The notes beneath the pieces were generated by a model, which was given only the letters and a program-made list of their open reading frames with translations, was not told the DNA's origin and made no database searches. A DNA stretch of 49,921 bases from Chloroflexota bacterium (GTDB lineage Bacteria; Chloroflexota; Dormibacteria; Dormibacterales; Dormibacteraceae): positions 1-49,921 of the forward strand of contig VBFH01000074.1 of NCBI GenBank assembly GCA_005883575.1. Direction: 5' to 3'. Below are positions 8,788 through 34,429 of the stretch, in pieces (the stretch's first letter is position 1; every line of letters starts with the position of its first letter). Made by a program: the position numbers and the translations under genes.

Positions 8788-9576
8788 GTGATCCTGAAGG
8801 GCAAACGAGTGCTTATTGCGGGGATGTCCGATCGCCGGAGCATCGGCTTCTCGATCGCGCAGGAATGCCAGCGCGAAGGCGCCGAGATCTTGCTGACGAG
8901 CTTCGGCCGCATGATGAGCATCACGGAGATGACCGCGAAAAAGCTCGATCCCGTGCCGCAAATCCTGGAGATGGATGTAACGAAACCTTCAGATATCGAG
9001 AATGCGGCCAAGGAAACCTCGAAGCGATGGGACCGCCTCGATGGGATGGTGCATTCGGTCGCGTTTGCTCCGGCGGACGCGCTCGGCGGCCAATTTCTTA
9101 ACACACCGTGGGAAAGCGCGGCGACTGCGCTGCAGGTGAGTGCATTTTCGTTCAAAGAAATGGCGCGCGGTTTCCTGCCCCTGATGCAGGATCACGGCGG
9201 TTCAATGGTCACGCTCGACTTCGACAATTCGACGAATGCATGGCCGAAATACGACTGGATGGGGGTCTCGAAGGCAGCACTTGAATCGGTCACGCGCTAC
9301 CTGGCGAGGGACCTCGGCCGCTACAAGATTCGCGTCAACGCGGTCTGCGCCGGACCCCTGGCAACCCTCGCGGCCAGCGGCATCCCCGGGTTCAAGGATT
9401 TCGAAGAGGTTTGGGAAAAGCGTGCGCCCCTGGGCTGGAACCTGCAGGACAAATCCCCGGTGGGACGTGCGGTCTGCGTCGTCCTTTCGGATTATCTCGA
9501 CCTGACCACAGGCGAGCTTTTGCACGTCGACGGCGGCTATCACGCGATGGGGAGTGAACTGCCTCCAGCCGATTGA
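8788..9576 (+). CDS. fabI: Enoyl-[acyl-carrier-protein] reductase, InhA-like FabI
   Basis: A short-chain dehydrogenase of 262 residues with the FabI-specific catalytic pattern YxxxxxxK: Tyr155 and Lys162 in YDWMGVSKAALE. The cofactor region AGMSDRRSIGFSIA near the N-terminus is the atypical FabI glycine motif that binds NADH. C-terminal features (RAPLGWNLQDKSPVGRAVC and TTGELLHVDGG) and the LDFD strand before the active site resemble mycobacterial InhA closely. It carries out the last reduction of each fatty-acid elongation cycle. The GTG start is supported by a -10 element 6 nt upstream rather than by a ribosome site. Confidence 0.93.
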   Translation: MILKGKRVLIAGMSDRRSIGFSIAQECQREGAEILLTSFGRMMSITEMTAKKLDPVPQILEMDVTKPSDIENAAKETSKRWDRLDGMVHSVAFAPADALGGQFLNTPWESAATALQVSAFSFKEMARGFLPLMQDHGGSMVTLDFDNSTNAWPKYDWMGVSKAALESVTRYLARDLGRYKIRVNAVCAGPLATLAASGIPGFKDFEEVWEKRAPLGWNLQDKSPVGRAVCVVLSDYLDLTTGELLHVDGGYHAMGSELPPAD

Positions 9577-9621
9577 CCCAACATCTTGTGTCCGCCAGGC
9601 GACAAGCGCGCAACATCGTGT

Positions 9622-9680
9622 TAGGCTCTCCCAAAATCTCGGCGTGGCCGCCTCGCCGCCACGGCCGGCAAACGGGAGGA
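9622..9680 (+). repeat. Leader element, copy A
   Basis: The segment CCCAAAATCT, then GGCGTGGCCGCCTCGCC, then GCCGGCAAA and CGGGAG closely matches, block by block, the leader of prfA at 33275-33345. It begins just after a TAGGCT hexamer (9622-9627) and ends in the Shine-Dalgarno GGGAGGA of the RNase H-like gene, so it would form most of that gene's 5' untranslated RNA. The central part can fold on itself. Confidence 0.5.
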
Positions 9681-9687
9681 GTGCAGC

Positions 9688-10101
9688 TTGCGGGAGTGCC
9701 TGGTGATCTACGTAGACGCCGCGCTGGACAAGCATGGCCGGGCCGGATGTGGCCTGGCCGTTTTTGTTAGAGGCCGAGCTGTCTACACAGAGTCGTTCGG
9801 CTTTTCGCATGTCGGTGGCTCGGCCCAACTGGAGGCACACGTGTGCGCGGGCGCGCTCGATCTAGCCGCCGCGCGCTGGCCACATCACCGTGTGATCGTG
9901 CGCACTGATTGCGCTCCGGTGGTCCGCAGCCGAATGCCGTCGAGCGACAGCTTTCGATTGGCCGTGCACGAAGTTCGCGAACGATGCCGGCGTGGCTGGC
10001 GCGTGGTTCGTTATGTCAGTCGTAAAGCAAATCCCGCGCATGAGCTTGCACGCGAGGGATTGAAGAGTCTCTCCAAACAACAACTCCTGGCCGCGGCGTA
10101 A
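9688..10101 (+). CDS. RNase H-fold protein (reverse-transcriptase-like RNase HI family)
   Basis: A 137-residue single-domain protein. The expected order of acidic residues is seen: Asp10 (YVDAALD, first strand), Glu49 (QLEAH, helix A) and Asp74 (VRTDCAP). The C-terminal NPAHELAREGL corresponds to the usual NxxADxLA motif, but His118 stands where the fourth catalytic Asp is normally found. Members cleave RNA in RNA-DNA hybrids or act on related substrates; activity is uncertain here. The TTG start is chosen because GGGAGGA lies 7 nt upstream. A strong terminator follows the gene, so it is a single-gene unit. Confidence 0.75.
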   Translation: MRECLVIYVDAALDKHGRAGCGLAVFVRGRAVYTESFGFSHVGGSAQLEAHVCAGALDLAAARWPHHRVIVRTDCAPVVRSRMPSSDSFRLAVHEVRERCRRGWRVVRYVSRKANPAHELAREGLKSLSKQQLLAAA

Positions 10102-10122
10102 CTCGGCTCGAAATATTTTGGG

Positions 10123-10165
10123 ATCGAGCGCAGCTTAATATTGCTGCGCTCGATTTTCTTTTTGT
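10123..10165 (+). terminator. Rho-independent terminator after the RNase H-like gene
   Basis: A perfect 12-bp stem (ATCGAGCGCAGC with its complement), an 8-nt AT loop and a T-rich tail (TTTCTTTTTG). It ends only about 12 nt before the ATG of the AT-hook gene, whose Shine-Dalgarno lies between them. Confidence 0.9.
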
Positions 10166-33229: not shown

Positions 33230-33274
33230 TGATGGAGATTCACGAGGGGGGCAGGCTCCCCTTGTGGGGAACCC

Positions 33275-33345
33275 CCCAAAATCTTCTGGCGTGGTCGCTT
33301 CGCCCTTTGGTGGCGGTTGCCCGGCAAAGCCGGGCAACGCGGGAG
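33275..33345 (+). repeat. Leader element, copy B, with hairpin
   Basis: CCCAAAATCT, GGCGTGGTCGCTTCGCC, GCCCGGCAAA and CGGGAG match copy A (9622-9680) in the same order, with longer spacers. It includes a perfect 10-bp hairpin GTTGCCCGGC AAA GCCGGGCAAC (33316-33338) just before the prfA ribosome site. A second imperfect stem (GGCTCCCC / GGGGAACC) lies upstream at about 33254-33272. No T-tract follows, so it is not an intrinsic terminator. Confidence 0.55.
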
Positions 33346-33352
33346 TAAGGAA

Positions 33353-34429
33353 GTGATTGATCGGCTGGAGTCGATAGCGAGGCGCTATCGCGAGATTGAA
33401 AACGCGATGGGGCGTCCCGAGGTCGCGTCGGACCACGAGCAGCTTACAAAGTTGGCCCGCGAACAACGGTCAATGCGCGAGATCGTCGAGGCGTACGACG
33501 CGTACCGCCGCGCGCGCAGGGAAATGGAGTCTGCGCACGACATGCTGCGACACGAGAAAGACCTGGAGATGCAGGAATACATGCGCTCCGAGGAGCGCCG
33601 CGCCGCCGAGCAGGTGGAGAAGCTCGAAGAAAAGCTCAAGGTGCTCCTGCTGCCGAAGGATCCGAATGACGACCGCGACGTTGTGGTCGAGATCCAGGGC
33701 GCGGAAGGGGGGGAGGAGGCGGCGCTCTTCGCAGCCGACCTCTTCCGCATGTACACGCGCTGGGCCGAGAAAAAGGGATGGAAGGTCGAGGTCGTCGACG
33801 CGTCACCGACCGGGATGGGCGGATACGACAAGATCGAGTTCGAGGTCCACGGGCAGGGTGCGTATTCACAGCTGAAGTACGAAGGGGGCGTGCACCGCGT
33901 CCAGCGCGTACCGAAGACGGAGGCGCAGGGCCGGGTCCATACTTCGGCGGCGACCGTCGCCGTGCTCCCGGAGGCCGACCCCGTGGAGGTCGAGCTCAAG
34001 CCGGAAGATCTCGAAATCAAGGCCTCCACCTCGACAGGCCCGGGCGGCCAAAGCGTGAACACCACCTACTCGGCAATCCGCATCACCCATAAGCCGACGG
34101 GCCTCGCAGTCAGCATTCAGGACGAGAAGTCGCAGCTCCAGAACAAGGAGAAGGCCATGCGTGTGCTCCGGGCGCGGCTGTATGAGATGAAGCTTGCCGA
34201 GCAGCAGGAGGCGATCGGGGCGCAGCGGCGGGGCATGGTTCGCACTGGCAACCGCTCTGAGAAGATCCGGACTTACAACTTCAAGGACAACCGGGTGACC
34301 GACCATCGCATCAACCTCACGCTGCACAAGCTGGACAGGGTCATGGCCGGTGACCTCGACGAGCTAGTGTCGGCAGCGATCGCGGCCGAGCGCGCGGCAC
34401 AGCTCAACGGCGGCGACGCTGTGGCGTGA
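33353..34429 (+). CDS. prfA: Peptide chain release factor 1
   Basis: 358 residues from GTG 33353. The stop-codon-reading tripeptide is PKT ([16 protein letters not shown]), which marks RF1 rather than RF2. The catalytic GGQ is at about 231-233 in [20 protein letters not shown]. The N-terminal coiled domain is normal in length. It releases peptides at UAA and UAG. An earlier in-frame ATG would start inside the leader hairpin and adds non-conserved residues, so it is rejected. Its stop overlaps the prmC GTG (GTGA), coupling RF1 to the enzyme that methylates it. Confidence 0.96.

Follow-up and report, generated by a model that had tools for sequence, protein, structure and literature searches.

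A probable NrdR-controlled leader of an RNase H-like gene and a separate dispersed two-hairpin element before prfA in a Dormibacteraceae genome

Two leader regions were compared in a stretch of 49,921 nucleotides (the whole of the DNA analysed here, called the window), one lying before an RNase H-like gene (A) and the other before prfA (B). The results make it probable that A is an NrdR-controlled promoter and 5' leader of the RNase H-like gene, and that B is a separate, dispersed two-hairpin insertion element. B does belong to a dispersed family of two-hairpin elements, and this family is the novel part of the analysis. The likeness between A and B is a matter of chance.

Similarity between the two leader regions

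A sequence-only reading had taken A (9622-9680) and B for two copies of one element, possibly a regulatory RNA leader or a dispersed palindromic repeat. The pattern that it described was confirmed: four blocks stand in the same order in both regions and a gene start follows each. The shared blocks extend over 9630-9679 in A and 33275-33345 in B, with CCCAAAATCT starting at 9630 and 33275, GGCGTGGYCGCYTCGCC starting at 9641 and 33288, and GGCAAA and then CGGGAG further downstream in both. Hairpins are likewise present in both regions, which also speaks for a common origin. The local alignment of A and B contained 10 identical bases, a 2-base gap and 18 columns with 3 differences, for a score of 17, and an 87-base query from B reached a mean of 13.2 and a maximum of 15.5 in 40 shuffled windows. 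Since the A-B pair had been picked from the whole window, it is the all-against-all count that applies. Such a search of the real window gave 35 direct pairs with a score of at least 17, among which A-B ranked 32nd, and seven shuffled windows gave 3-12 pairs each at this score, so that chance explains the likeness.

The shared letters are also poorly kept where A and B are compared with their own relatives. TCCGAAATCC replaces CCCAAAATCT in most orthologues of A in the genus and the second block varies freely, and in the other genera compared the whole stretch from promoter to ribosome site is only about 10 bases long. In the relatives of B, conservation within the element is lowest in the stretch that resembles A, a spacer between two hairpins. 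A covariance model built from 17 copies of the B family gave no match at 9600-9690 even when filters were switched off and E values up to 10 were admitted, and Rfam 15 at gathering score found nothing in the window except one tRNA. No other site in the genome has CCCAAAATCT with GGCG at most 8 bases away. A longer exact pattern, searched in 84,980 species, occurred in at least 117 contigs, and among the matches listed the hits look like unrelated chance matches, many of them apparently coding. Two copies of a single leader or repeat are thus a highly improbable account of A and B, and the candidate that they are homologous but degraded copies was rejected on the chance-level score, the missing model match and the unconserved shared letters.

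Promoter and leader of the RNase H-like gene

The features of region A are as follows.

9576-9591, + strand: NrdR-like box 1, ACCCAACATCTTGTGT, 13 of 16 positions matching the consensus; conserved in orthologues, with variation in the sequence of this first box
9599-9604, + strand: -35-like GCGACA, from sequence inspection, with GACA conserved; below the threshold of the consensus scan and 17 bp before the -10
9608-9623, + strand: NrdR-like box 2, GCGCAACATCGTGTTA, 9 of 16 positions, 32 bp from box 1
9619-9627, + strand: extended -10-like TGTTAGGCT, kept in almost every one of the 20 aligned leaders; start site predicted
9643-9663, + strand: genus-specific leader hairpin (stem 9643-9650 with 9656-9663), from covariation in 11 genomes
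9674-9681, + strand: ribosome site GGGAGGAG, from sequence; conserved
9688-10101, + strand: RNase H-like gene with a TTG start, its fold assigned from motifs and a weak model

In the aligned leaders, the part best conserved across genera runs from 9576 to about 9635 and contains the promoter and the box pair, which lies just upstream of the interval first singled out and overlaps it. The pair matches at 22 of 32 positions and is the best in the window at an offset of 31-32; none of 300 dinucleotide shuffles reached this score, a count which was not a planned test because the NrdR idea was formed after the conserved alignment had been seen. A box pair at offset 31-32 was present in 20 of 20 orthologous leaders, which are not 20 independent cases since close orthologues share ancestry, and in the L326 leader the best score is shared by the conserved pair and one other. 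The same genome carries a box pair at offset 32 in the promoter of nrdJ, a gene that we take from its sequence to encode a class II ribonucleotide reductase; none of 500 shuffles reached that pair. The genome also has nrdR itself (TIGR00244 above the curated cut-off, C51:17396-17833). Conservation and the nrdJ promoter are more independent support for NrdR at A than the shuffles are.

Published NrdR sites consist of two boxes 31-32 bp apart (PMC2892513) with a spacer of 15-16 bp (PMC12051234), and the consensus is acaCwAtATaTwGtg as cited in PMC4009431 (for the box pairs, Rodionov and Gelfand 2005), matched here over 16 positions as acaCwAtATaTwGtg(t). Like the box pairs of ribonucleotide reductase promoters, A has two 16-bp near-palindromic boxes at a 32-bp offset placed on a promoter, and its genome has both nrdR and a similar pair before nrdJ. 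It differs from those systems in that the gene presumed to be controlled is RNase H-like rather than a ribonucleotide reductase, and in that the second box is degenerate: taken alone, box 2 is a weak candidate site with its 9 of 16 positions. The boxes might instead bind another regulator, for example of the TetR or GntR type, with the NrdR likeness a coincidence. Box 2 is a near-perfect short palindrome, AACATCRTGTT, unlike box 1, and the upstream gene is fabI, which makes a fatty-acid regulator conceivable. Such a regulator is nevertheless unlikely, because this genome repeats both the box type and the 32-bp offset in its nrdJ promoter, and the offset at A agrees with the published NrdR geometry (PMC2892513, PMC12051234).

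A sigma-70 consensus scan of the A promoter gave no hit at threshold, since the -10 hexamer TAGGCT departs from TATAAT, and the putative promoter was called from conservation and spacing. Box 2 lies between the -35-like and extended -10 elements and reaches onto them, a position that suits a repressor. Taken together, A is a probable new NrdR target with predicted sites. When dATP is plentiful, NrdR would bind 9576-9591 and 9608-9623, flanking and overlapping the promoter, and would lower transcription of the RNase H-like gene together with that of nrdJ; when dATP falls, both genes would be released. The transcript would start near 9634 and would carry a short hairpin before a strong ribosome site. 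To our knowledge NrdR does not usually control RNase H-like genes, and a limited literature search found no paper naming one as a target. If NrdR does act at A, this group of bacteria would adjust an RNase H-like enzyme in step with deoxynucleotide supply, which would provide a testable link between dNTP levels and the removal of RNA from DNA.

The hairpin in the leader was examined by covariation. Four of the eight stem pairs show double compensatory changes, 94% of the cells are paired, and the whole structure scores above all 500 shuffles; the fold in the genome itself is not exceptional (z -1.4), and the hairpin is absent from the aligned leaders of the other genera compared. The earlier idea of a regulatory RNA leader therefore survives for A as a short hairpin covarying within the genus, and fails as an element common to A and B. 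The hairpin may influence translation or RNA stability. In three leaders (L323-L325) the hairpin region is longer, and L323 (G004) holds repeats such as CCCAGAAGCAAACGG.

The RNase H-like gene or its leader was matched in 39 of the 42 genomes of the family, and the translated protein is very highly conserved across the genera compared. Its residues D10, E49 and D73 sit in RNase H-like motifs, and a single-sequence model, of low confidence with a mean pLDDT of 46, shows the order of strands and helices of RNase H. No Pfam, NCBIfam or meaningful PDB sequence match was obtained; with motifs and a low-confidence model but no profile match, the product of 9688-10101 is probably, and not certainly, RNase H-like. 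A strong terminator-like hairpin with a T run follows the gene at 10120-10157, which suggests a single-gene unit.

The family of two-hairpin elements before prfA

Element B and its parts are listed below.

33241-33356, + strand: the complete element B, which ends on the start of prfA (GTGA); full-length covariance-model match of 110 bits
33241-33266, + strand: hairpin 1, from folding, compensatory changes and the model
33267-33277, + strand: GGGAACCCCCC arm, conserved in relatives and in the model
33278-33312, + strand: variable spacer, containing most of the chance likeness to A
33313-33340, + strand: hairpin 2, from folding, compensatory changes and the model
33353-34429, + strand: prfA, with a GTG start; best protein matches of 52-56%, spread over several phyla

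Members of the family share one order of parts, namely hairpin 1 (CACAAGGGGGGCAGGCCCCCCTTGTG and variants), GGGAACCCCCC, the variable spacer and hairpin 2, which reads GGTTGCCCGGC AAA GCCGGGCAAC and is followed by GCGGGA. B has both hairpins, the GGGAACCCCCC arm and a 3' GCGGG before the start codon; it was itself among the 17 copies used for the covariance model, and independent support comes from BLAST of the B region in relatives. Double compensatory changes were seen in 9 of 21 pairs and affect both stems. The covariance-model search that the sequence-only reading had proposed as a check, which left A unmatched, found this element of about 115 bp in 35 of the 42 genomes and in 12 of 14 genera, with up to 26 copies per genome, the counts for weaker subfamilies depending on a model in which the strongest subfamily predominates. 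No match was found at 1e-7 in 200 sampled genomes of the phylum outside the family. In the genome studied here, another complete copy precedes leuD, and weaker relatives are found at other places. The suggestion of a dispersed palindromic family settling upstream of genes accordingly holds for B, whose relatives often lie immediately before genes and whose two stems both show compensatory changes, and does not extend to A. At two loci, L249 and L263 (G003:C79 and G000:C14), two or three relatives of the family stand head to tail in tandem.

It was also considered whether B-type elements are regulatory leaders, acting as attenuators or as translation switches for genes such as prfA and leuD. 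Both stems carry compensatory changes, and the start codon follows GCGGGA by about 10 bases in most of the prfA, leuD and nuo copies, a near-fixed distance that speaks for such a role. Against it, the elements are patchily distributed in the genus, many of them are found downstream of genes or antisense to gene ends, and one genome has 26 copies, so we regard a leader function as quite improbable.

Among known repeats, REP/BIME and other small palindromic repeats are short, GC-rich, hairpin-forming sequences dispersed in many copies within one lineage, and the B family resembles them in all of these features. We know of no REP or BIME with long variable target duplications and a reading frame that ends on the next start codon. 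Rickettsia palindromic elements occur in coding regions and can be read in frame, as can B-type elements. They differ in that the B family would keep the host protein by duplication of a gene end and restart, not by translation of the element within the protein. No described family resembling B was found in a literature search that covered few subscription journals.

Target duplications and the reading frame through the element

The flanks of 24 of 80 B-family copies are alike (score of at least 18), as against 3.5% of mismatched pairings. A few of these 24 reflect tandem elements, and the rest are target duplicates of 23-186 bases, the left duplicate usually ending 2-7 bases before hairpin 1. 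Copies often have such flanks, in which the start or the end of a gene is repeated. Genes affected in this way include prfA, leuD (at three insertion points), nuoH and the first prfB frame as far as the frameshift stop, the names other than prfA having been assigned by reading the protein sequence; apparent 3' ends of genes, in antisense, are duplicated as well. At the leuD copy of the genome studied here the duplicate is 39 bases long and exact, and in six genomes of the same genus leuD follows directly after leuC with a single leuD start and no element. Insertion of a B-type element would thus duplicate 4 to about 186 bp of the target, a mobility that we infer from the flanks, and the duplication would leave the gene start or end intact in one of its two copies.

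The direct repeats could also be ordinary tandem duplications made by slippage, with the element as a passenger. This is the kind of origin that might be expected from the two tandem elements with a gene start between them (prfA in G009 and G011, leuD in G009), and it would suit an element that has no inverted terminal repeats and whose carriers almost all lack an IS1634-family transposase. It would not readily account for single copies whose duplications end 2-7 bases from hairpin 1 at many unrelated loci, for the six genomes with one leuD start and no element, or for three different insertion points at leuD. We therefore consider slippage somewhat unlikely.

Long direct repeats of variable length, 8-514 bp, are known for IS1549 and IS1634, and a 2008 review of the IS4 group stated that no mechanism had been put forward for them (PMC2266710). 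The B family shares such duplications with these insertion sequences and differs in that its elements are about 115 bp long, carry no gene and have no inverted terminal repeats, end-to-end comparison of their termini scoring no better than shuffled sequence. An IS1634-family transposase was over the cut-off in 1 of the 42 genomes, many of which are incomplete assemblies, and that genome gave no element match. Without inverted ends, and with the transposase missing in nearly all carriers, the B family was not filed with IS1549 and IS1634. An IS1634-family transposase as the mover of the family was rejected, as it was not found in nearly all carriers.

The reading frame that enters the element from the duplicated gene start was then followed. 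Ten copies have a duplicated gene start. In 8 of them, the frame that begins at the left start has no stop codon across the element until a TGA overlapping the start codon on the right; the other two are each the second element of a tandem array. We estimate about five independent insertions among the open-frame copies, and high GC content makes open frames through these elements less surprising. A frame open up to an overlapping stop would fit ribosomes that stop and restart, so that coupling to the upstream gene would be kept. It is possible, at somewhat less than even confidence, that B represents a new kind of mobile element, gene-less, with two hairpins and no inverted repeats, which makes duplications of a few to nearly 190 bp and stays silent inside operons through a duplicated gene end and an open frame with stop and restart. 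If the family works as proposed, it would add to the known cases of long target duplications of variable length, and a tiny element could enter essential genes (prfA, prfB, leuD) without breaking them.

Several observations were made at individual loci of relatives. At the secA-prfB junction (L238, L242, L246 and L256), the first prfB frame is duplicated to the left of a B-family element, and in most of these the duplicate extends to the frameshift CTTTGA. Between leuC and leuD, five genomes of the same genus (L342, L351, L352, L354 and L355) carry differing GC-rich CCCTCTCCCC...GGGGAGAGGG inserts, which make this a site with two kinds of small insert. The leuD locus of G001 (L346) holds a B-family relic without hairpin 1, where 12 bases resembling the leuD start are duplicated.
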